This document shows, one piece after another, positions 5,685 to 29,225 of a stretch of 44,751 nt of DNA (positions within the stretch are counted from its first letter, which is position 1; each line of letters starts with the position of its first letter). Below the pieces are notes generated by a model that saw nothing but the letters and a program-made list of their open reading frames with translations, searched no databases and was not told where the DNA came from. The translations under genes and the position numbers were made by a program. The DNA is from Sphingopyxis sp. KK2 (GTDB taxonomy: Bacteria; Pseudomonadota; Alphaproteobacteria; Sphingomonadales; Sphingomonadaceae), in contig NZ_LYVN01000018.1 of NCBI RefSeq assembly GCF_001990265.1, positions 1 through 44,751 on the forward strand, in the 5' to 3' direction.

Positions 5685-6871
5685 GCCGCAGTCCGATTGG
5701 CGATGTTATTGCCCTCGATCATGTAGACCGAGTTCATCTCGCCGCGTTCGTCACGGAAGTAGCTCATCCAACGCTGCCAACGCATCACCGCCATCACGGC
5801 GCTCAGCGAGTTGACCGCGGCGATCTGGATGTCCGCCCGGTAGATCGCATCCTCCTCATTGTCGTCTCCGAACGGCAGCAACCTCGCTACGTCCGCCCAC
5901 GGGGTGCCGGGACGGATGAACGTTGCGCGCGCGCAGCCGTCCAGGCACCCCTCCTCCAAGCCGACTCCGATACCGGTGTCGACGAACGGTATGCCCATCT
6001 GCAGCAGGCCCTGCGCGATCGTCCGACGCGCCGAACCCTTGTCGACGCAGACGAACACGAAGTCAAAGCCCTCGAGCTCGCCAATGTTGGATTCCGTGAG
6101 CTTCACTGGGTGCGGAGAGATGCCGGTGTGCATCCTGGCATAGACCTCGGCGTAGTAGTTCACCTTGAACGGAAACGCCTTCAGTAGCGCCGGCTCCGGC
6201 GAGCCTGGTGACCGAAAAAGGTTGTGGTTGAGCAGCTGGTCGCCATCGTAAAGGTGGATCTCCGTCACCCACGTCTTCGACAGGATGTCCAGCAGGAAGG
6301 ATCCTGTGCCGCCAAGGCCGATAATCGCGACCCGGCCCATCAGCTTCCGGTTCACAGCGCCGATCCGATAGCGGGCCGACGCGGAATCCGGGATTGCGAA
6401 GGGGCTGTCATCGTTGGCGATGATGCCCCGTGCGTCGGTCCGAGCGTTGGCCGTCGAGTCGAGCGACCGGGCCGCACCGCCTATCATTCGTTCGTACGCA
6501 ACCACCTTGTCGTAGATGTTGTCGTAGCGCTGGGTGACCTCCGGTTTCGAAGACAGGTAGTGATCGACGTCCAACTCGCCACAGCGCTGGCGGCACGAAC
6601 TGTTGACGATGTTCACCATAGGGGAGCCGTCGCGATGGCACGGCATCTCCCCGGCGAAATACATGGTGTGGTCCAGCTGCGGCGTCGCCGTCAGGCCCGT
6701 CGCCGCATCAAGCGAGAGGGCGCACGTGAGAATCCCCCGCGCCAACGCGCGAGCCCTCGTGACGTAGGGGATGCCGTGAACAATCAGATGCGAGTTGTTC
6801 AGCGCCAGCTCGAAGCCCTCGTCAACAAGGCGCTTCAGGTGCGGATCAAGACTTGTCAGAGCGGCGGACAT
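5681..6871 (-). CDS. E1-like ThiF adenylyltransferase with N-terminal extension
   Basis: A 396-residue E1-like enzyme expected to adenylate the C-terminus of the ubiquitin-like protein encoded just upstream. The ThiF domain begins about residue 178: nucleotide loop IIGLGGTGS (183-191), acidic LYDGDQ (207-212), NHNLFR (215-220) as the ATP-contacting Asn/Arg, and VCVDKGSARR (274-283) carrying the catalytic Asp region. Cysteines C309 and C313 (EGCLDGC) are candidate transfer residues. The first 175 residues are not ThiF; HTMYFAGEMPCHRDGSP resembles the DUF6791-type region found before ThiF domains and could supply the missing E2-like activity, which is inference. The start overlaps the multi-Ubl gene by 26 bases, and the stop overlaps the DUF6527 start by four. 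Confidence 0.88.
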   Translation of the reverse strand: MSAALTSLDPHLKRLVDEGFELALNNSHLIVHGIPYVTRARALARGILTCALSLDAATGLTATPQLDHTMYFAGEMPCHRDGSPMVNIVNSSCRQRCGELDVDHYLSSKPEVTQRYDNIYDKVVAYERMIGGAARSLDSTANARTDARGIIANDDSPFAIPDSASARYRIGAVNRKLMGRVAIIGLGGTGSFLLDILSKTWVTEIHLYDGDQLLNHNLFRSPGSPEPALLKAFPFKVNYYAEVYARMHTGISPHPVKLTESNIGELEGFDFVFVCVDKGSARRTIAQGLLQMGIPFVDTGIGVGLEEGCLDGCARATFIRPGTPWADVARLLPFGDDNEEDAIYRADIQIAAVNSLSAVMAVMRWQRWMSYFRDERGEMNSVYMIEGNNIANRTAA

Positions 6872-7514: not shown

Positions 7515-7676
7515 TTCTCACTCCATCTGCCGACCCGAACTAAGGGAGACTGCCAGCGGCCGGCTGCTGCCATCAATTTGGGATGCGCAGCCGATCGGGT
7601 ATTCGGATGCGAATCTTTTCACGTCCGAATTTCGGGGCAACGGCGCATTAGCTAGAGGCGGCAACAGGAGAGCCTA
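7515..7676. promoter_or_regulatory. Divergent promoter region between Ubl operon and sigma cassette
   Basis: This 162-bp gap separates two divergently read operons. It contains ATTCGGA (7601-7607) and its reverse complement TCCGAAT (7624-7630), spaced by 16 bases, with a nested ATTCG-GATG-CGAAT dyad. This is a candidate binding site for a shared regulator, possibly the sigma factor cassette itself. A GGAG ribosome site precedes the GTG at 7677. No -35/-10 pair can be assigned with confidence. Confidence 0.35.
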
Positions 7677-8291
7677 GTGATTGCTGAAGATGACGATCAG
7701 GACCCGGACGATGAGCGGGGCTGCCGAAAGTACACCTTCGAAGAGGTGGTGGAAGGGCTCCGGAGCCTCGGCGCGCCGCAGTTCGCCATCCTGAATGGGG
7801 TCAGCAGGGGTCTTGCTGGCACGGCAGGGATGGAACCCGACGAGCTCATGAACGAGGCGTTCGTCCGGGTCATCGATGCGCGCACCTGCCCCGTCGACGT
7901 CGACATGGTCGGTTTCTGTATCATGACCATGAAGAGCATCGCGTCGACCGCCCACCGCAAGCGCAAGAAGGAGGTTGCCGAGGGGACGAAGCACGTCCCG
8001 ATAGCCGCGAACGACGGCGCCCTGGACCCAGCCGATGATGCCGTGTCACCAGAAAATGAGGCACTCTCCCGGATCTTCCATGGCGAGTGCCTAGCGAGGG
8101 TGGACGCGGCAATCTCCGACGACGAAGAGTTGCAGCTGCTGGTGATGGGCCTCTGCGATAACCTGATTGGCAAAAAGCTCGAGGAGCTCCTCGGCACCAA
8201 CACAAAGGGTTTGGCTGCTGCCCGGAAGCGGCTCGCTAAGCGCCTGGCGAAGGCGTTTCCTGCAGGATCGCCCGTTAGATCGAAGGACTGA
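7677..8291 (+). CDS. Sigma-70 family RNA polymerase sigma factor-like protein
   Basis: A 204-residue protein with the two-part layout of small sigma factors. Residues about 40-105 resemble region 2 (MEPDELMNEAFVRVID, then FCIMTMKSIASTAHRKRKK), and residues about 150-192 resemble region 4 (EELQLLVMGLCDNLIGKKLEELLGTN followed by a basic recognition helix with AARKRLAKRL). The start is GTG, preceded by AGGAG. It heads a three-gene plus-strand operon with a small acidic protein and an ImmA/IrrE protease. That suggests a switch in which proteolysis frees or removes a regulator, an inference from the gene set. The match is clear in pattern but weak in detail, so it could be a sigma-like DNA-binding protein that no longer works with polymerase. 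Confidence 0.7.
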   Translation: MIAEDDDQDPDDERGCRKYTFEEVVEGLRSLGAPQFAILNGVSRGLAGTAGMEPDELMNEAFVRVIDARTCPVDVDMVGFCIMTMKSIASTAHRKRKKEVAEGTKHVPIAANDGALDPADDAVSPENEALSRIFHGECLARVDAAISDDEELQLLVMGLCDNLIGKKLEELLGTNTKGLAAARKRLAKRLAKAFPAGSPVRSKD

Positions 8292-21499: not shown

Positions 21500-23086
21500 T
21501 CAGGCGCGAATAGAAGACCAGTTGAGCTCGAAGCGCGCGAGATATTTGCGGAGGCGGTCGGCGTCGTTGGTGCTCTTGCGCACGGAGCGCGAGGCCGCGA
21601 ACAGGCTACGCCCCGCGTCGGACAACGATGCCGCGCCGCGGCACGCCTCGATGACGAAGGCGAGCTGGACACGGTCGAAGGGGTCGATCGCGGCGAGCCG
21701 GTCGGGGCCGAGGATCGCATCGAGGCCGTCGCCGGGCGACGGCTCGCCGCTCCACGTCGCGTGCAGCCGCGCGATTTCGAGTCCCACCGCGTCGCTGTCG
21801 ATCCGCCCGGTGGCGCTCAGCGTCGCCATGCGGGTGACGCTGGCGGCGAGGTCGCGAAAATTGCCCTGCCATTTCGCTGTCGTGCTTTCGGCGAAACCGA
21901 GGTAGCGGTCGCGCGCTTCCTTGTTGAAGGTGACCCGCGCGCCCTCGCGCTCGGCGAAGCGTTCGAGTTCATAGTCGAGGTTGGGGGCGATGTCCTCGCG
22001 CCGCGCGGCGAGCCCGGGCAGCGAAAAGGTCCACAGGTTGAGACGAGCGAACAGATCGTCGCGAAAGCGCCCCGTCGCGACCTCGCCCACGAGGTCGCGG
22101 TTAGTCCCTGCGATCAGTTGGAAATCGCTCTTCGCCTCGCTGTCGGCGCCGACTGGGAGGAAGCGGCCTTCCTCGATCGCGCGCAGGATCATCGCCTGTT
22201 CGTCGAGGCCGAGTTCGCCGATTTCGTCGAGGAAGAGCAACCCCTTGTCGGCGCTCTTGAGCAGCCCCGGACGGTCCTGCGCAGCGCCGGTGAAGGCGCC
22301 TTTGCGGTGGCCGAACAGCGCCGACATCGCGCTGTCGCCCTTCAAGGTCGCGCAATTGACCTCGACGAACGGTCCGCTGATCTGGTGGCGCAGCTTCTTG
22401 AGCTCGTAGATCTTGCGGGCGAGCTGGCTCTTTCCCGCGCCGGTCGGCCCCATCAGCAGGATCGGCGCGCGGCTGCGCACCGCGACCTGCTCGATCTCCT
22501 CGATCATCCGGTTGAAAGCGGGATTGCGCGTCTCGATCCCGCTTTTCAGGAAATTCGCGCTCTCGGCGCTCGCCTCGGCAAAGCGGGTCGCTATCGAATC
22601 ATAGCGCGACAGGTCGAGGTCGATGACGTTCCACGTCCCGATCGGCTGCGGCGCGCCGCGCTGCGGCTGGGTCTGGAGCAGCCGGCCGGGCAGATAGCGC
22701 GCCTCGGTGAGCAGAAAGAGGCAGATCTGTGCGACATGGGTGCCGGTCGTGATGTGGACCAGATAATCCTGCGCATCGGGGTCGAAAGGAAAGTCGCGCG
22801 CGAAATCGAGCAGCTTGCCGTAAACTTCTTCGAAATCCCAGGGGTCGTCGAAGTCGAGCAGTTGCTGCACGACCTCGGTCTCGGGCGAGACGTCGCGGAT
22901 ATCGTCCATGACGAATTCGGCGAGGCGGCGATGATGGCTGCCGTGGAGCAGGATGAAGCGATCGACGCGCAGATCCTCCTGCATGCAGATGCTCACTGTC
23001 GGGCGCCACTTGTTCCAGCGCGACGGGCCGAATTTGGCGGCGTCGAGAGTCGAGCCGAGGAATCCGATGACGGTGACGGGCTTCAT
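21500..23086 (-). CDS. rtcR: RtcR, sigma-54-dependent activator of RNA repair operon
   Basis: A 528-residue activator. The N-terminal CARF domain (VTVIGFLGSTLDAAK, DYLVHITTGTHVAQICLFLLTEARYLPG) is the sensor; in studied RtcR proteins it binds tRNA fragments with 2',3'-cyclic phosphate ends. The central AAA+ domain has Walker A GPTGAGKS, the sigma-54 contact loop GAFTGA, and Walker B LLFLDEIGEL, with sensor arginines in RFRDDLFARLN. The C-terminal part is helical and DNA-binding. The start at 23086 (MKPVTVIGFLG) is preferred to an ATG 12 codons earlier, since MKPVTVIGFLGS matches the family. It is divergent from rsr and faces a sigma-54 promoter. Confidence 0.95.
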   Translation of the reverse strand: MKPVTVIGFLGSTLDAAKFGPSRWNKWRPTVSICMQEDLRVDRFILLHGSHHRRLAEFVMDDIRDVSPETEVVQQLLDFDDPWDFEEVYGKLLDFARDFPFDPDAQDYLVHITTGTHVAQICLFLLTEARYLPGRLLQTQPQRGAPQPIGTWNVIDLDLSRYDSIATRFAEASAESANFLKSGIETRNPAFNRMIEEIEQVAVRSRAPILLMGPTGAGKSQLARKIYELKKLRHQISGPFVEVNCATLKGDSAMSALFGHRKGAFTGAAQDRPGLLKSADKGLLFLDEIGELGLDEQAMILRAIEEGRFLPVGADSEAKSDFQLIAGTNRDLVGEVATGRFRDDLFARLNLWTFSLPGLAARREDIAPNLDYELERFAEREGARVTFNKEARDRYLGFAESTTAKWQGNFRDLAASVTRMATLSATGRIDSDAVGLEIARLHATWSGEPSPGDGLDAILGPDRLAAIDPFDRVQLAFVIEACRGAASLSDAGRSLFAASRSVRKSTNDADRLRKYLARFELNWSSIRA

Positions 23087-23228
23087 GATTTGATTTATAC
23101 TGTGATATAAATCACGATACAAGATGATCGTATTCCCGATTATGCGCGATCATTCGTTTCGGGTCGGCGATTTTTTCTATTGATTAAAAACAATAAGTTA
23201 CCTGAATTTTGGATGCTCGCCATCCAAT

Positions 23229-23244
23229 TGGCACGCCTCGTGCA
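23229..23244 (+). promoter_or_regulatory. Sigma-54 promoter of rsr-rtcBA operon
   Basis: TGGCACGCCTCGTGCA has GG, ten bases, then GC, the exact -24/-12 spacing of a sigma-54 promoter, and lies 107 bases upstream of the rsr start. A sigma-54 promoter is expected because RtcR, encoded divergently, is a sigma-54 activator with an intact GAFTGA loop. Confidence 0.85.
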
Positions 23245-23350
23245 GTTCTGTTGGCGTCGGGTTCACGTCCCCGGCAGCAGCGGAGCAAGGGGCGGCCGGA
23301 ATGGGCCGGCCGCCCCCAAGCTCCCGAGAGATTTTCGAAGGAGTTGGACG

Positions 23351-24898
23351 ATGGCCAACAAGACCCTTTTTTCGGCGGCGCTGTCGCGCTTCCTGCCGCG
23401 CACCGACACGGTGAACGACGCCGGCGGCGCGGCCTATGCCTATGGCCCCGAAGCCAGGCTCGCGCAGCTTGCCGCGACCGGCACGCTGTCGGACGGCTTC
23501 TATTCGGGCGCCGACGCGCAGCTCGCCGACGTTCTGGCGGCAGCGCAGGCGGTGTCGCCCGATTTCGTCGCCAAGGCCGCGGTCTATGCGCGCAAGGCGG
23601 GTGCGATGAAGGATATGCCGGCGCTGCTCGCCGCTTACCTGACCGTCGCCGACCCCGACCTCGCGGTCCCGGTTTTCGGCCGCGTGATCGACAACGGCCG
23701 CATGCTGCGCAACTTCGTGCAGATCATGCGATCGGGCCAGGTCGGCCGGCGTTCGCTCGGCTCGCGTCCGAAGCGGATGGTGCGCGAATGGCTGGAGAAG
23801 GCCTCGATGCCGCAGCTGATGGCCGCGGCGACGGGCAATGATCCCAGCCTCGCGGATATCGTCCGCATGGTCCACCCGGCACCGGCCTCGGCCGAACGCC
23901 GCGCCTTTTACGGCTGGCTGATCGGCAAGCCCTATGATGTCGCGGCGCTGCCGGCGGAAATCGCGGCGTTCGAAGCCTGGAAGCGCGATCCCAAAGGGTC
24001 GTTGCCCCCGGTGCCGTTCGAATGGCTGACCGCCTTTCCGCTGACCGCGGAGCAATGGGCCGAGCTTGCGGGCCGCATGGGCTGGCAGGCGCTGCGCATG
24101 AACCTCAACACGCTGGCGCGCAACGGCGCGTTCGACGTGAAGGGGACGACCGACAAGGTCGCGGCGCGGCTGTCGGATGCCGATACGATCGCGCGGGTTC
24201 GCCCGGCACCGTATCAGCTGATGGTCGCGCTCGATCAGATCGGCGATGCGGTTCCGCTTCGCGTGCACGCGGCGCTCGAAGAGGCACTCGAACTGTCGCT
24301 CGCGACGGTTCCGGTCCTCGCGGGCCATGTCGTGGTCTGTCCGGACGTCTCGGGCTCGATGAGCTGGGCGGCGACCGGCCAGCGCAAGGGTGCGACCTCG
24401 GCGGTTCGCTGCATCGACATCGCGGCGCTGGTCGCGGCGGCGGTGCTGCGCACCAACCGCCAGGCGCGGGTAATGCCCTTCGATGTCGACGTGGTCGGCA
24501 TGGCGCTCGATCCCAAGGCGCGGGTCGCGGTCAACGCGGCACGGCTGGCGGCGATCGGCGGCGGCGGCACCAATGTGTCGGCTCCGCTCGCCCGGCTGAA
24601 CGCCGAGCGCGCAAGCGTCGATACGGTGGTGATCGTCTCGGACAATGAAAGCTGGATCGATCCGACCCGGCGCGGCGCCACGGCGACGATGAACGAGTGG
24701 AACAGACTGAAGGCCCGAAACCCGGGCGCGAAGCTGATCTGCATCGACATCCAGCCCTATGGCACCACGCAGGCGAAGGATCGCCAGGACATCATGAATG
24801 TCGGTGGCTTCACCGACGCGGTCTTCGACGCGATGGCGCGCTTCGCTTCCGGCGAAACGCGCGACTGGGTCCAGATCGTCAACGAAACGGAGGTTTGA
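23351..24898 (+). CDS. rsr: Ro60-like TROVE/vWA RNA-binding protein (Rsr)
   Basis: A 515-residue bacterial Ro orthologue. The N-terminal TROVE domain of HEAT-like helical repeats (about 20-310) forms an RNA-binding ring (LLAAYLTVADPD, NGRMLRNFVQIMRSGQVGRRSLGSRPKRMVREWL). The C-terminal vWA domain has a MIDAS metal site DVSGSMS starting at D332, with GGTN and SDNESW later. Ro proteins bind Y RNAs on the outside of the ring and misfolded or single-stranded RNA ends in the cavity, and work with nucleases. An AAGGAG site precedes the ATG. Six structured RNAs follow directly after its stop, and rtcB after them, so the whole set is likely one operon under RtcR. Confidence 0.95.
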   Translation: MANKTLFSAALSRFLPRTDTVNDAGGAAYAYGPEARLAQLAATGTLSDGFYSGADAQLADVLAAAQAVSPDFVAKAAVYARKAGAMKDMPALLAAYLTVADPDLAVPVFGRVIDNGRMLRNFVQIMRSGQVGRRSLGSRPKRMVREWLEKASMPQLMAAATGNDPSLADIVRMVHPAPASAERRAFYGWLIGKPYDVAALPAEIAAFEAWKRDPKGSLPPVPFEWLTAFPLTAEQWAELAGRMGWQALRMNLNTLARNGAFDVKGTTDKVAARLSDADTIARVRPAPYQLMVALDQIGDAVPLRVHAALEEALELSLATVPVLAGHVVVCPDVSGSMSWAATGQRKGATSAVRCIDIAALVAAAVLRTNRQARVMPFDVDVVGMALDPKARVAVNAARLAAIGGGGTNVSAPLARLNAERASVDTVVIVSDNESWIDPTRRGATATMNEWNRLKARNPGAKLICIDIQPYGTTQAKDRQDIMNVGGFTDAVFDAMARFASGETRDWVQIVNETEV

Positions 24899-24900
24899 AA

Positions 24901-25034
24901 GGGTCGTGGCGAATGCAGGCAGGACTACATTCCAAGGCGCTTGATCCATTGGGGATGCGCGGGGAGGGATCCTTGCGAGCGGGTTCGATTCCCGTCTGGC
25001 GAAAATGTCTTGTCGATACTCGTCGCCACGACCC
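24901..25034 (+). ncRNA. Y RNA candidate 1 of 6
   Basis: Starts two bases after the rsr stop. A 12-bp terminal stem, GGGTCGTGGCGA (24901-24912) with TCGCCACGACCC (25023-25034), encloses 134 nt. Inside is the shared motif: GGCGA-ATGCA, helix strand GGCA, GGACT, ACATT on the 5' side, and AATGT, CT, TGTC, then CTCG on the 3' side. Helices ACATT/AATGT and GGCA/TGTC flank an asymmetric internal loop GGACT/CT. The cargo includes a hairpin near 24938-24960 and a tRNA T-arm-like hairpin CGGG-TTCGATT-CCCG. It is the longest terminal stem of the array. Confidence 0.85.
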
Positions 25035-25044
25035 ATCATGACCA

Positions 25045-25173
25045 TTACGGCGAATGCCGGGAAGGACTACAGACGGTCGCGGGTTCGAATCCCGCCGGGT
25101 CTTCCTATGGCCCGTAGCTCAGTGGGAGAGCATCAGCCTTCGGGTGTGTCTTTTCTGATTCTCGTCGCCGTGA
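25045..25173 (+). ncRNA. Y RNA candidate 2 of 6, permuted tRNA cargo
   Basis: Terminal stem TTACGGCGA/TCGCCGTGA (one G-U). Shared motif GGCGA-ATGCC, strand GGGAA, GGACT, ACA, with TGT, CT, TTTCT and CTCG on the 3' side. The cargo holds tRNA parts in permuted order: T-arm GCGGG-TTCGAAT-CCCGC, then an acceptor-like stem CGGGTC/GGCCCG closed by a seven-base loop, then a full D-arm GCTC-AGTGGGA-GAGC, then a small TTCG hairpin. That order is what results if a tRNA's ends are joined and it is opened in the anticodon region, where the Y stem attaches. Confidence 0.85.
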
Positions 25174-25197
25174 CCCGGCTTGAATTTTGACAGGGTA

Positions 25198-25350
25198 TCG
25201 CAGCGAATGCCGGTGGGACTACATCGGCACCATGAAGGCCCGACGAGTAAAGCGCCCCGGCTCCCCAAAAGGGACCGGGGAGATGCGGGTTCGAATCCCG
25301 CCTTGCCATGTAGCTTAAGGGCCGCGTCTCACCATCTCTCGTCGCTGCGA
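25198..25350 (+). ncRNA. Y RNA candidate 3 of 6
   Basis: Terminal stem TCGCAGCGA/TCGCTGCGA. Motif AGCGA-ATGCC, strand GGTG, GGACT, ACA with CT, CACC and CTCG on the 3' side; the ACA/TGT helix is weakened (CGT). An alternative helix CTACAT(c)GGCA with TGCCATGTAG (10 bp, one bulge) closes the cargo instead. Cargo: a strong hairpin CCCCGG...CCGGGG with A-rich loop and a T-arm GCGGG-TTCGAAT-CCCGC, here at the 3' side. It is the most divergent of the six and the longest (153 nt). Confidence 0.75.
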
Positions 25351-25361
25351 GATCCTTGTCG

Positions 25362-25442
25362 GCCGGCGGATGCCGGACGGGACTACACCTTCCAACGGAG
25401 CCCCATGCGGGGCAATGTCTCGTCCAAATCCTCGCCGCCGGC
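25362..25442 (+). ncRNA. Y RNA candidate 4 of 6, minimal form
   Basis: Only 81 nt. Terminal stem GCCGGCGG/CCGCCGGC. Motif GGCGG-ATGCC, strand GGACG, GGACT, ACA with TGT, CT, CGTCC and CTCG on the 3' side; the GGACG/CGTCC helix is five perfect pairs. The cargo is just one hairpin, GCCCC-ATGC-GGGGC, with no tRNA-like arms. It shows that the stem and loop motif, not the tRNA module, is the constant part of the array. Confidence 0.8.
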
Positions 25443-25453
25443 ACCCCTTTCAC

Positions 25454-25597
25454 GCTGGCGAATGCCGGTGGGACTACATCAGGGCACCTGAAACGCCGGT
25501 TCGAATCCGGTCGGGTCAGCACCGCGAAAGCGGACTGACGCGTCGTCTAGCGGTCGAGGACGCAGGTCGAATGTCTCACCATAACTTCGTCGCCAGC
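25454..25597 (+). ncRNA. Y RNA candidate 5 of 6, permuted tRNA cargo with GAAA cap
   Basis: Terminal stem GCTGGCGA/TCGCCAGC. Motif GGCGA-ATGCC, strand GGTG, GGACT, ACAT with ATGT, CT, CACC on the 3' side. Cargo in order: small hairpin TCAGG-GCA-CCTGA, T-arm CCGG-TTCGAAT-CCGG, a long acceptor-like stem GTCAG-CA-CCGC capped by a GAAA tetraloop and returning GCGG-A-CTGAC, then a D-arm-like GCGTC...GACGC with GTCTAGCGGT. A capped acceptor is the feature reported for the tRNA-mimic domain of bacterial YrlA RNAs. Confidence 0.85.
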
Positions 25598-25608
25598 ACC
25601 GATAACAA

Positions 25609-25738
25609 GTCGGCGAATGCCGGCGGGACTACAGGGTCAGAGCGTCCATCCCAAGGGGTGGGAGGTCGGCGGTTCAAGTCCGCCCCCGGCTTGCCGGAGT
25701 AGCTCAGGAAAAATGTCTCGCCACGCCTCGTCGCCGGC
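25609..25738 (+). ncRNA. Y RNA candidate 6 of 6, tRNA opened in D loop
   Basis: Terminal stem GTCGGCGA/TCGCCGGC (one G-U). Motif GGCGA-ATGCC, strand GGCG, GGACT, ACA with TGT, CT, CGCC and CTCG on the 3' side. Cargo in order: GAGC, an anticodon-arm-like hairpin CATCC-CAAG-GGGTG, a variable segment, T-arm GGCGG-TTCAAGT-CCGCC, a short acceptor-like stem CCGG-CTTG-CCGG, then TAGCTCAG whose GCTC can pair back with the first GAGC as a D-stem. So nearly a whole tRNA is present, opened at the D loop. It ends 32 bases before rtcB. Confidence 0.83.
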
Positions 25739-25769
25739 ACCATGAAGATGAAGAAGAAGGAGGTCAGCC

Positions 25770-26996
25770 ATGACCCAGACGACCTATGAAGTGCTGAATG
25801 TCGAGGGCGGACGCCCGGTCAAGATGTGGACCCGCGGCGTGCCCGTCGAGGACATGGCGCGCGACCAGCTTCGCAAGGCGGCGAGGATGCCGTTCGTGTT
25901 CAAGCATGTCGCGGCGATGCCCGACGTCCATGTCGGCATCGGCGCCACCGTCGGATCGGTGATCCCGACCAAGGGCGCGGTGATCCCGGCAGCGGTCGGG
26001 GTCGACATCGGCTGCGGCATGATGGCCGCGCGCACCACGCTGATGGCACACGACCTGCCCGACAACCTCGAGGGCATTCGCAGCGCGATCGAAGCGGCGG
26101 TCCCGCACGGCCGCTCGGTCGGACGCGGCAAGCGCGACAGCGGGTCGTGGGGCGATCCTCCGGCGGCGATCGTCGACGCCTGGGCGACGCTCGCCGAGCG
26201 GTTCGGGCGCATCGTCGCCAAGCACCCGCGCCTGAAGAACACCAACAACCTCACGCATCTGGGGACGCTCGGGACGGGAAACCATTTCATCGAGCTGTGC
26301 CTCGATACCGAGGCGCGGGTGTGGGTGATGCTGCATTCGGGATCGCGCGGCGTCGGCAACGCGATCGGCACCTACTTCATCGAACTGGCGAAGAAGGACA
26401 TGCGCAAATGGTTCATCAACCTGCCCGACGAAGATCTGGCGTACTTCCCGGAAGGGACCGATCATTTCGACGATTATGTCGAGGCGGTCGGCTGGGCGCA
26501 GGACTTTGCGGCGCTGAACCGGCGCATGATGATGGCGAATGTCATCGCCGCGCTCCGGTTCCAGATCGCCAAGCCCTTCGAGGCCGAGGCCGAAGCGGTG
26601 AACTGCCATCACAATTATGTGACGCGCGAGAACCATTTCGGCGAGAATGTGCTCGTGACCCGCAAGGGGGCGGTGCGCGCGGCGAAAGGCACGATGGGAA
26701 TCATCCCGGGTTCGATGGGCGCGAAATCGTTCATCGTGCGCGGGCTGGGTAACCCGGAAAGCTTCGATAGCTGCAGCCATGGCGCGGGCCGCGTCATGAG
26801 TCGCACCGCGGCGAAAAAACTCGTCACGCTCGACGAGCATATCGCCGACACCGCGGGCGTCGAATGCCGCAAGGACGAAGGCGTCATCGACGAGACGCCG
26901 AAGGCGTACAAGCCGATCGAGGCGGTGATGGCGGCGCAGGCCGACCTCGTCGAGATCGTCCATACGCTGAAGCAGGTGGTGTGCGTGAAGGGGTGA
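25770..26996 (+). CDS. rtcB: RNA-splicing ligase RtcB
   Basis: A 408-residue RtcB, the same length as the E. coli enzyme. It joins 2',3'-cyclic phosphate (or 3'-phosphate) to 5'-OH RNA ends using GTP and Mn2+. Metal-site motif GVDIGCGMMAART (77-89, with D79 and C82), GTGNHFIEL, MLHSGSRGVGN, NCHHNYV, and CSHGAGRVMSR, in which H337 is the histidine that carries GMP in characterised enzymes. An AAGGAGG ribosome site precedes the ATG. It is the core repair enzyme of the operon and lies directly after the RNA array. Confidence 0.97.
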   Translation: MTQTTYEVLNVEGGRPVKMWTRGVPVEDMARDQLRKAARMPFVFKHVAAMPDVHVGIGATVGSVIPTKGAVIPAAVGVDIGCGMMAARTTLMAHDLPDNLEGIRSAIEAAVPHGRSVGRGKRDSGSWGDPPAAIVDAWATLAERFGRIVAKHPRLKNTNNLTHLGTLGTGNHFIELCLDTEARVWVMLHSGSRGVGNAIGTYFIELAKKDMRKWFINLPDEDLAYFPEGTDHFDDYVEAVGWAQDFAALNRRMMMANVIAALRFQIAKPFEAEAEAVNCHHNYVTRENHFGENVLVTRKGAVRAAKGTMGIIPGSMGAKSFIVRGLGNPESFDSCSHGAGRVMSRTAAKKLVTLDEHIADTAGVECRKDEGVIDETPKAYKPIEAVMAAQADLVEIVHTLKQVVCVKG

Positions 26997-27025
26997 TCCC
27001 CTTCACGCCGCCGTCGGGGGAAGGC

Positions 27026-27421
27026 ATGCACATAATGACCTGCAAGCGATGCGGAGCCGGGCTTTCCCGGCCTGTTTTGCGCGTGCTTTGCGAAGATGCC
27101 GAGAGCAGGATCCTTGGCGCTGGAGATTGGCCTGTTGTTCTGGCTTATGAGTTCCAGTGCGAACGAAAGTCGCCGCGCGGTTACATATACCCGCCCGATG
27201 CGCGCCACGTCACGGCGTTCTGGCTGCATCCAGATGCCATCGTGACGGGTGCGGTGCTTGACGATCGGGCCCTCGATGAACCGTTGCCCGAAGAACATTA
27301 CGATCCCGTGCTGCATTGTGGCTGCGGCCAGCGATTTGCGTCGTTCGAGTCAATTTTCGACGCGGTGCCGCATGTTGAAGTGCATGAGCCTGACATCCAA
27401 TGGAAACCAGAAGAAAAGTGA
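27026..27421 (+). CDS. Cys-rich protein of unknown function in the RNA-repair operon
   Basis: A 131-residue protein that I do not recognise. Two cysteine pairs, CKRC near the N-terminus (C6, C9) and CGC near the C-terminus (HCGCGQRF), suggest a split zinc ribbon. The middle is beta-rich (VVLAYEFQCERKSPRGYIYPPDARHVTAFWL). The ATG at 27026 follows GGGGGAAGG; an internal ATG three codons on (27035) is also possible. Its stop overlaps the start of the nucleotidyltransferase gene (TGATG), so it is translationally coupled and a likely operon member. A role in RNA repair is inference from position alone. Confidence 0.7.
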   Translation: MHIMTCKRCGAGLSRPVLRVLCEDAESRILGAGDWPVVLAYEFQCERKSPRGYIYPPDARHVTAFWLHPDAIVTGAVLDDRALDEPLPEEHYDPVLHCGCGQRFASFESIFDAVPHVEVHEPDIQWKPEEK

Positions 27422-28200
27422 TGACCATCGCACCCGCTATCCGCCGTGAAATCGAAACCCGCCTGGCTGCCGTCGAGGCGGAGGATGACGTGCGGCTTTT
27501 GCTCGCGATCGAATCGGGGTCGCGCGCCTGGGGCTTTCCCTCGCCCGACAGCGATTATGACGTGCGCTTTCTCTACGTCCGGCTGCGTCGCGACTATCTG
27601 GCGCTCAGCCCGGTGCGCGACGTGATCGAGCGGGAGATCGTCGACGAGATCGACCTCAACGGTTGGGATGTCCGCAAGGCGCTCGGGCTGATGCTGCGCA
27701 ACAATTCGGTGCTGTCCGAATGGATCGAATCACCGATCCGCTATCGCGACCCCCACCCGGTGATCGCGCGGATGGCCGAGCTCAAGGATCGCCATTTCGA
27801 TCCCAACGGCTTTGCGCTGCACTATGCCAAGCTCGGCCGGACGGCGATCGCGCGCTGGATGCAGGATGCGCATGAGGTCGCGGTGAAGCGCTATTTCTAT
27901 GCGCTGCGCCCGGCGCTCGCGATCCGCGTGCTGCGGCGCGATCCGTCGCGCCGGCCGCCGATGCAATTGCAGCAATTGATGGCCGAGGCGGACTTGCCGC
28001 GATCGGCCACCGAGGAAATCGAGCGGCTGGTGGCGATGAAGGCGGACACGCGCGAGGCGGGACCGATCGCGCGCGTATCCGAAATCGACGCGCTGATCGC
28101 CGACGAATTGACGCGCGCCGACGAGGTCCCCGCTCGGCCGCCAAGCGAAGCATTCGCGGCGCAAGCGAATGCGCTGTTTCTGGATTTGGTAGAAGAATAA
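27421..28200 (+). CDS. RlaP-like nucleotidyltransferase (DNA polymerase beta fold)
   Basis: A 259-residue predicted nucleotidyltransferase of the YcgL/RlaP type found in RNA-repair operons. The catalytic signature is ESGSRAWGFPSPDSDYDVRF (31-50): GS at 33-34 and the metal-binding acids D45 and D47. The rest is helical, including LRNNSVLSEWIESPIRY and AVKRYFYALRPALAIRVL, typical of the family. It probably adds nucleotides to damaged RNA ends or modifies RNA before ligation; the substrate is unknown. The ATG is fused to the preceding stop, and rtcA begins two bases after its own stop. Confidence 0.88.
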   Translation: MTIAPAIRREIETRLAAVEAEDDVRLLLAIESGSRAWGFPSPDSDYDVRFLYVRLRRDYLALSPVRDVIEREIVDEIDLNGWDVRKALGLMLRNNSVLSEWIESPIRYRDPHPVIARMAELKDRHFDPNGFALHYAKLGRTAIARWMQDAHEVAVKRYFYALRPALAIRVLRRDPSRRPPMQLQQLMAEADLPRSATEEIERLVAMKADTREAGPIARVSEIDALIADELTRADEVPARPPSEAFAAQANALFLDLVEE

Positions 28201-28202
28201 CA

Positions 28203-29225
28203 ATGATCATCATCGACGGATCGGAAGGCGAAGGCGGGGGGCAGGTGCTGCGCTATGCGTGTGCGCTCGCGCTGCTCACCGGCACGCCCTTCACGATCGA
28301 GAATATCCGCGGCGGGCGGGAGAAGCCGGGGCTCATGCGCCAGCATGTGACCGCGATCGAGGCCGCATGCGTGATCGGCGGCGCCGAATGCTCGGGGCTG
28401 GCGGTCGGGTCGAACAGCATCAGCTTCCGTCCCGGGCGTGTGACGCCGGGCGACTATCATTTCGCGGTCGGCACCGCGGGCAGCACCGGGCTCGTCCTTC
28501 AGGCGATCCTCGTGCCGCTGATGATGGCCGATGGCCCGTCGCGTATCGTGATCGAGGGCGGCACGCACGCGATGGCGGCGCCGCCGTTCGAATTCACCGA
28601 ACGCACGCTGCTGCCGATCATCAATCGCATGGGACCGACGGTGCAGGCGCGGCTGATTCGCCACGGCTTTTTCCCGCGCGGCGGCGGGCGGATCGAGATC
28701 GATATCGCGCCCGCCCCGCTGCGCGCGATCGAGTGTATCGAGCGCGGCGAAGCATACGGGCGTTCGGTGACGGCGCTGGTCGCGGGCATCCCGTTCGATG
28801 TCGCCGAGCGCGAGCTCAAGACGGCGCGCAAGATACTGGCGGACTGGCCTGCCGAAGCCTTTGCTACGCGCCAGCTTCCCGCCGAGTTCGGCCCGGGCAA
28901 TGCGCTGCTGATCGAAACCGCCTTCGAGCATGTCACCGAGGTGATGTCGGGTTTCGGCAAGCTCGGCGTGCCTGCAGAGCGGCTCGCACAGACCGCGTCG
29001 CGGCGTGCGGCGGGCTATGTCGGATCGGGTGCCTTTGCCGGACCCTATCTGCAGGACCAGCTGCTGCTGCCCTTTGCGATGGCGGGCGGCGGGGTGTTCA
29101 CGACGGTCAAGATCAGCCAGCATTCGCGGACCGCGATTGAGCTGATCCGCCGCTTCATCGGGATCGACACCGCGATTGTCGAGGTCGAAGATGGCCCGTG
29201 CCGGGTCGCGGTCGGCAAGGCCTGA
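28203..29225 (+). CDS. rtcA: RNA 3'-terminal phosphate cyclase RtcA
   Basis: A 340-residue RtcA, which converts RNA 3'-phosphate to 2',3'-cyclic phosphate with ATP. Family motifs: IDGSEGEGGGQVLRYA at the start, NIRGGREKPGLMRQH, VGTAGSTGLVLQA, RHGFFPRGGG and VKISQHSRTA, where H307 aligns with the adenylated histidine of E. coli RtcA (H309). It is the last gene of the rsr-RNA array-rtcB-unknown-RlaP-rtcA operon. The next gene starts about 120 bases downstream without an obvious shared role. Confidence 0.96.
   Translation: MIIIDGSEGEGGGQVLRYACALALLTGTPFTIENIRGGREKPGLMRQHVTAIEAACVIGGAECSGLAVGSNSISFRPGRVTPGDYHFAVGTAGSTGLVLQAILVPLMMADGPSRIVIEGGTHAMAAPPFEFTERTLLPIINRMGPTVQARLIRHGFFPRGGGRIEIDIAPAPLRAIECIERGEAYGRSVTALVAGIPFDVAERELKTARKILADWPAEAFATRQLPAEFGPGNALLIETAFEHVTEVMSGFGKLGVPAERLAQTASRRAAGYVGSGAFAGPYLQDQLLLPFAMAGGGVFTTVKISQHSRTAIELIRRFIGIDTAIVEVEDGPCRVAVGKA

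Follow-up and report, generated by a model that had tools for sequence, protein, structure and literature searches.

Six tandem Y-RNA-like units with diverse, partly tRNA-like inserts between rsr and rtcB in Sphingopyxis sp. KK2

The rsr-rtcB locus

The window analysed here is a stretch of 44,751 nucleotides from Sphingopyxis sp. KK2 (contig NZ_LYVN01000018.1). It contains, in this order, rtcR on the other strand, rsr, the array described below, rtcB, a 185-aa ORF, RlaP and rtcA (Table 1). The gap between rsr and rtcB measures 871 bases and holds six tandem Y-RNA-like units at about 24901-25740; all six structured RNAs that a preliminary description had placed between the two genes were found. 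The solved structure closest to the window Rsr is that of Deinococcus Rsr (2nvo, E 4e-15), and PNPase is encoded in the genome. The 185-aa ORF, for which a Pfam search gave no match, is likely an uncharacterised operon gene with a later start.

With the divergent rtcR, a sigma54-like site, rtcB and rtcA, the locus has the composition of an RtcR-controlled repair operon with a predicted promoter. The gene set and the site before rsr agree with the earlier placement of the array inside such an operon. The site has one mismatch to the sigma54 consensus. Within 23100-26000 a scan for sigma70-type sites returned none (0.4 expected), and a scan of the same region gave no terminator-like site on the plus strand inside the array. 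The gene set and regulator are those of the Salmonella rsr-yrlBA-rtcBA operon under RtcR, as described in an excerpt of PMC7790460; the window differs in having six Y units instead of two and in the RlaP gene and the 185-aa ORF that stand between rtcB and rtcA.

Table 1. Features of the locus in window coordinates
Feature	Position	Strand	Evidence
rtcR, CARF-type sigma54 activator	21500..23122	-	Pfam RtcR 275.9 bits, Sigma54_activat 169.6 bits
Putative sigma54-like promoter site TGGCACG-CCTC-GTGCA, upstream of rsr	23229..23244	+	read from sequence
rsr, bacterial Ro60 (TROVE + vWA)	23351..24898	+	Pfam vWA_Ro60 56.9 bits, TROVE 27.4 bits
Y unit 1, divergent, weakly class B-like	24904..25031	+	R2 60.8 bits
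Y unit 2, class A with the classical YrlA layout; resembles tRNA-Arg/Met once un-permuted	25045..25173	+	Rfam YrlA 60 bits
Y unit 3, class B (D-stem AAGC:GCTT, T-arm, proposed pseudoknot)	25198..25350	+	R2 152.2 bits, model row
Unit 3, proposed pseudoknot, 5' strand GGCA	25226..25229	+	register-free pairing test
Unit 3, proposed pseudoknot, 3' strand TGCC	25304..25307	+	register-free pairing test
Y unit 4, YrlB-like short form	25361..25443	+	YrlB 22.3 bits (E 0.098, gathering score 97); R1 37.5 bits, R2 40 bits
Y unit 5, laid out as class A; resembles tRNA-Glu once un-permuted; module about 25479-25569	25453..25598	+	tRNA alignment
Y unit 6, class D, D-loop-opened permuted tRNA; module about 25634-25708	25608..25739	+	R1 124.3 bits, model row
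rtcB, RNA ligase	25770..26996	+	Pfam RtcB 427.9 bits
185-aa ORF, overlaps the rtcB 3' end, followed by RlaP	26864..27421	+	true start uncertain
RlaP, RNA-repair-associated polymerase-beta family protein	27400..28200	+	Pfam RlaP 249.6 bits
rtcA, RNA 3'-phosphate cyclase	28203..29225	+	Pfam RTC 239 bits

The six units

All six units start with a 5' strand of the GGCGAATGCC type. One or two changes had been allowed for in copies 1, 3 and 4; these are the deviating copies, with a single change in each (GGCGAATGCA in copy 1, AGCGAATGCC in copy 3 and GGCGGATGCC in copy 4). The conserved element GGACTACA and the TCGCC-type 3' strand which closes the terminal stem are present in six of six units, just as first reported. 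The lengths, first put at 81-153 nt, become 83-153 nt when taken from the covariance models; if longer stems are counted they come to 85-165 nt. The terminal stem of Y RNAs, formed by GGCGAAUGC- and UCGUCGCC-type strands from the 5' and 3' ends, is present in every unit, and the array adjoins rsr, as is expected of a Y RNA gene. The six units thus have a common Ro-type stem and different inserts, which is how the loops had been described before; by class, their order is X-A-B-short-A3-D.

An extractor written for such units finds six in the window gap, compared with a maximum of one and a mean of 0.008 in 1000 dinucleotide shuffles. Folded on their own, the units have z values between -2.3 and -3.5 (100 shuffles each). 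In Rfam, five units resemble YrlA with 26.7-60 bits, all below the gathering score of 69, and copy 4 is a short form devoid of the tRNA-like part for which YrlB is the closest family. At Rfam gathering scores only a tRNA-Cys gene was found in the window and no Y unit. Running the YrlA and Y RNA models over the locus, a check proposed with the preliminary description, gives matches to YrlA and YrlB that stay below the cut-offs. Because the Rfam cut-offs miss every unit of the window, arrays of this type are probably under-annotated. Our own covariance models, R1 from class D units and R2 from class B units (see below for the classes), each recover all six; copy 6 is a row of R1 and copy 3 a row of R2, so that these two matches are given by construction.

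Arrays in related genomes

We collected 80 loci by likeness of rsr, the closest of them from Sphingopyxis, and added 23 rows from 396 genomes of the order (the window's own included) and the window gap. These 104 loci, which are not a random sample because they were chosen by likeness to the window rsr, reduce to 95 distinct gaps when identical ones are merged. The extractor found 341 units in 94 of the 95 gaps, and 0-3 units per set in ten shuffled sets. No unit was found in one gap (L078, where the contig stops at rsr), one unit in seven gaps, two in seven, three in 27, four in 29, five in 21 and six in three. These counts are lower bounds, since some short Pseudomonas units in the model lists were missed by the extractor (e.g. 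L103, 7665-7755). The earlier expectation of usually one or two Y RNAs per genome does not hold for these loci, as 80 of the 95 distinct gaps contain at least three. Two loci from genomes outside this set, L178 and L179, have seven units each.

In 81 sources (1.08 Mb) R1 gave 296 matches and R2 298 matches at E <= 0.01. By a reading of the list, five of the R1 matches lie outside the gaps, all with at most 27.4 bits, and the three that were checked all touch a tRNA gene; for R2 a reading of the list gave no match outside the gaps among the 298. Among 289 genomes of the taxonomic class, R2 matches in six and R1 in 57 at E <= 1e-4, most of the R1 matches listed being below 47 bits; among 398 genomes of the phylum R1 matches in 13 at E <= 1e-6. 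We examined 16 places matched by R1: ten have rsr, one has rtcB only and five have neither, and these five overlap tRNA genes, in one case a run of four. In locus L188 (G791, about 5944-6087) R1 matches extend across adjacent tRNA genes. As the matches there span neighbouring tRNA genes, this hints that the D-loop-opened forms described below could have arisen from tandem tRNA genes.

Within the genus, 60 genomes contain seven with R2 matches and eight with rsr. All seven are among these eight, and the eighth carries only rsr residues 1-163. DNA similar to the locus also occurs in plasmid records of Rhizobium (17), Novosphingobium (2) and Methylosinus (2). Two Rhizobium plasmid records that were examined contain rtcR, the gene of an RNA-binding protein and an array, with an annotated RtcB in one. 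A Rhizobium leguminosarum plasmid (L400, CP050516.1) carries in succession rtcR, a gene resembling rsr, an array of five Y units, RtcB and a gene annotated as barnase inhibitor.

Some units stand apart from rsr. In L185 (G531 contig 107, 5270-5352) a Y unit lies immediately 5' of rtcB and no rsr was found on that stretch. In L418 (G291, contig 9, about 172754-172823, minus strand) an apparent orphan short Y unit is on a contig other than that of rsr and, by eye, adjoins an integrase-like ORF.

The units could in principle be cis-acting structures of the rsr-rtcB mRNA that serve in processing or translation control, and not free Y RNAs. Such a role would agree with their position in one untranslated stretch between operon genes and with the lack, in the scan, of a sigma70-like site of their own. 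We nevertheless regard it as quite improbable, as the stem matches known Y RNA families and as the unit in L418 appears to occur alone, off the rsr contig.

Viral contigs were scanned as well. They contain no stretch with the class B pattern and 87 stretches with the class D pattern, and R1 matches none of the 80 listed among these 87; the Leu pattern occurs in at least 80 stretches, and the 80 listed gave one match of 23.6 bits. Myxococcus phage Mx1 (L402) encodes an Rsr relative that is 44% identical along its full length. An annotated tRNA-Gly and a peptidyl-tRNA hydrolase come next; the extractor finds no Y unit in the 797 bases after the rsr relative.

Classes of inserts and their order

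The inserts were clustered by alignment score. At a cut-off of 0.8, picked after viewing 1.05, 0.9 and 0.7, we obtain class A (136 units in 87 loci), class B (60 units in 60 loci), class C (48 in 47) and class D (46 in 46), further a short class S with 14 units and small groups. The partition depends on the cut-off; at 0.9 the largest cluster takes up 241 of the 341 units and most classes are merged. Classes B and D occur with one copy per locus. B precedes C in 42 cases against none and D in 41 against none, and C and D have no fixed order (14:14). This copy number, together with the position of B ahead of C and D, points to distinct and conserved roles.

Among the 60 genomes searched, the rsr most similar to that of the window (94%) is from G1072. 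This genome has six units collinear with those of the window, with identities of 0.92, 0.88, 0.94, 0.95, 0.59 and 0.97 for units 1 to 6. In unit 2 the acceptor strands of the two genomes differ, yet pair in each of them. At position 5 the terminal strands of the window and of the nearest relative found are near-identical and the insert is different, the other five units being orthologous. By sequence, all six units have the common terminal stem and the inner helix that are typical of bacterial Y RNAs, their inserts differ, and relatives keep orthologous classes. Unit 1 of L027 (about 7574-7685) looks by eye like a recombinant, its front part being of class A and its back part of class B, with the joint in the T-arm.

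The first account had called the RNAs interchangeable. One exchange on a conserved stem (copy 5 of the window against copy 5 of L413) does support this; as a general rule interchangeability is not supported, given that B and D are present once per locus and B comes before C and D. It had further proposed that the units act as RNA guides; in such a reading the loops would base-pair with substrates and so aim the Ro ring. A common stem with different inserts, and a module exchanged on the same stem, would suit guides, but the inserts that can be read are structured and tRNA-like, and the ordered single copies of B and D also speak against them. We thus consider guides highly improbable.

Likeness to tRNA

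We scored the module of each window unit against tRNAs, with 30 shuffles per unit. Unit 2 scores 32.5 with tRNA-Arg(CCT), 30.5 with the next type and 21.5 in its native order (shuffle maximum 23.0), and unit 5 scores 32.0 with tRNA-Glu(CTC) and 21.5 with the next isotype (shuffle maximum 17.0). For unit 6 the score with tRNA-Met is 25.5 against a shuffle maximum of 17.0, and for unit 3 it is 19.0 against 16.5 for the shuffles. Units 1 and 4 score no higher than their shuffles; the module of unit 1 reaches 16.5 with the genome's own tRNAs, which equals the shuffle maximum of 16.5 and is no likeness beyond chance. A clear tRNA isotype can be called for 71 of 320 modules.

All 136 class A units score higher as tRNA once un-permuted, with breaks at tRNA positions 26-39 (10-90 percentiles). 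In class C rotation helps in 29 of 47, and barely. According to an excerpt of PMC11472068, YrlA superposes on tRNA as a circular permutation. By sequence, the class A inserts are permuted tRNAs opened in the anticodon arm, which is the published YrlA layout.

Single units of other loci also resemble particular tRNAs. One unit each in L178 (5677-5804) and L179 (5477-5610) is like a permuted tRNA-Leu with its variable arm, with Leu scores of 27.5 and 30.5 against 16.0 and 25.0 for the next type. Weaker Leu-like units are found in L180 (5957-6092; 22.0 against 19.0) and L065 (3287-3428; 19.0 against 18.0), and one unit of L178 resembles tRNA-Met and tRNA-Pro (26.5 and 25.5).

Compared with YrlA (RF02553; Salmonella YrlA, PDB 6CU1), the window array has in common the Ro-type stem and the site beside rsr. 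The tRNA-like module of YrlA, with T-arm, acceptor and D-arm in permuted order, corresponds to the layout of units 2 and 5, where the opening likewise falls in the anticodon arm. The topology of units 3 and 6 (classes B and D) is a different one. The best unit of the window remains below the YrlA gathering score, which is reached by six matches in 11 relatives' loci. Class D differs from YrlA in being opened in the D-loop and in keeping the anticodon stem, class B in its proposed pseudoknot, and the array in having several classes side by side. Unit 4 is short and has no tRNA-like part, as is the case for YrlB (RF02565), to which its likeness is weak and far below the gathering score. In the literature searched we found no description of class B, class D or such arrays; the principal bacterial Y RNA papers lie outside this literature and may hold one.

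Structure of class D

The class D alignment comprises 42 of the 46 units, four with wrong or odd ends being omitted. In it 96.8% of cells are paired and 21 of 34 pairs are changed on both sides. None of 500 shuffles reaches any of five measures, and in slid controls 33-50% is paired. Covariation is seen in the stem at the anticodon position, the T-stem and the acceptor hairpin. The D-stem GAGC:GCTC is invariant and hence provides no covariation support of its own; for this stem we rely on the resemblance to tRNA and on window unit 6, which was folded by itself. Of 41 rows, 19 lack the fifth acceptor pair.

Once un-permuted, 46 of 46 units score higher against the tRNAs of their genome, and 44 of 46 still do so with a stricter tRNA set and free rotation; the break point lies at tRNA positions 15-19 (10-90 percentiles). 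The tRNA core letters A14, G15, A21, C48, U54 and A58 are present in 42 of 42 rows and C56 in 41. A script counted the GG in 35 of 42, six of the seven misses show GG in the rows, and only L051 is truly without it. At position 55, however, 17 of 42 rows have a C, with which the usual pseudouridine would be lost. By a simple best-hairpin search, 25 of 42 acceptors are capped by a loop of the GNRA type and 28 of 42 anticodon stems end in a four-base loop; for unit 6 the evidence consists of its own minimum-energy fold, the R1 match and rotation tests. The class thus presents a tRNA body closed at both ends, and it is at the D-loop that the Y stem is attached. By sequence, class D is a permuted tRNA opened in the D-loop, in which the anticodon stem is kept with a short loop and the acceptor is closed by a hairpin loop.

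This structure bears on whether the inserts are decoys, which would draw anticodon nucleases or other enzymes that attack tRNA away from the tRNAs themselves, Rsr doing no more than stabilise the decoys. Hughes et al. propose a decoy role for the tRNA-like domain of YrlA, which is reported to be uncut by nuclease (excerpt of PMC7790460). Class D keeps the tRNA body and, since 28 of the 42 anticodon stems end in a 4-nt loop, would give a nuclease no ordinary 7-nt anticodon loop as a target; more than one tRNA type is mimicked, namely Glu in window unit 5 and Leu and Pro in L178/L179. An RNA which has no anticodon loop would, on the other hand, be poor bait for enzymes that read this loop, and the conserved Ro-type stem and the co-occurrence with rsr suggest that Rsr matters beyond stability. 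In our view a pure decoy role is rather unlikely.

Structure of class B

In the 60 class B units 91.2% of cells are paired and 23 of 37 pairs are changed on both sides. The strands of the D-stem flank the T-arm on both sides, and this stem covaries: one pair is AU in 51 and GC in eight, the next is AU in 57 and UA in two. A further helix can be formed by the bases after ACUACA with the bases before GUAGCUU; it crosses the D-stem and would therefore be a pseudoknot. In fixed alignment columns 63.3% of its cells are paired, the low value being due to register shifts. A register-free test with 57 of the 60 sequences gave 3.83 for the own partner against 3.00 +- 0.11 for shuffled partners (0 of 2000) and no effect in a neighbouring control region; the shuffle ignores relatedness, and this test is the sole support for the pseudoknot. 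The layout of class B resembles that of class D. Rotation against tRNAs gives no gain for class B (0 of 60), which makes a tRNA origin less certain for B than for D.

The preliminary description had made its case depend on covariance support in aligned homologues, and classes B and D do covary. Decayed tRNA genes, or a run of chance hairpins, have next to no chance of accounting for the array. There are clear tRNA pieces in it, in an order unlike that of a tRNA gene, but the shuffle control, the pair-keeping double changes across 42 and 60 relatives and the orthologous order speak against both. ARAGORN finds no tRNA gene in the gap, and decayed tRNA genes were rejected there. A coding region was rejected as well: the array is crossed by ORFs in more than one frame, but its variation, which is rich in indels and preserves pairs, fits RNA.

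Proposed role of the array

We consider it likely that the array consists of six Y RNA genes in an RtcR/sigma54 operon and that Rsr particles present the tRNA-like inserts to partners. Two known systems serve as models. In Salmonella RtcR binds 5' tRNA halves with a cyclic phosphate and switches on rsr-yrlBA-rtcBA, and in Deinococcus a Y RNA tethers Rsr to PNPase in the RYPER complex, as far as the excerpts of PMC7790460 and of PMC8394870 and PMC4726728 go. The homologue of the Deinococcus Rsr and PNPase, the two proteins of a putative RYPER, are both present in this genome. The earlier suggestion that RNA damage would induce all the units leans on the Salmonella operon and, in the window, on the rtcR gene and the sigma54-like site.

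We suggest that the array could work in the following steps. By analogy with Salmonella, tRNA damage would lead RtcR to switch on the array as one transcript with the operon. This transcript would be cut into single Y RNAs, each of which would bind Rsr through the common stem. The insert might then present a tRNA body, above all the elbow, to PNPase or to some other enzyme that handles tRNA. A cell with damaged tRNA would thus possess several kinds of Rsr particles, unlike one another in geometry or in partner. In our opinion the classes would expose the tRNA elbow in different contexts and to different partners.

One can go further and picture the array as a modular panel of tRNA impostors. 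Here tRNA bodies would be mounted on Y stems in at least two circular permutations, opened in the anticodon arm or in the D-loop, and from several tRNA types (Arg/Met, Glu and Ala-like ones; in other loci also Pro and Leu, the latter with its long variable arm). With the acceptor and anticodon ends shut, the elbow would be the sole readable part. Every impostor would recruit a single enzyme that handles tRNA to the Ro ring, or protect tRNAs against a single attacker, and the modules would be swappable on the conserved stem. We offer this extension tentatively, as a possibility that may well prove wrong.

In summary, the array places side by side classes of Y-RNA-like units that are opened at different points of the tRNA. 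This makes roles of Y RNAs beyond the gating or tethering of Rsr, as well as the tRNA mimicry of YrlA, testable. The array also offers natural permuted tRNAs that have no usable anticodon loop or free acceptor end and that may serve as tools for the study of enzymes which read only the elbow.
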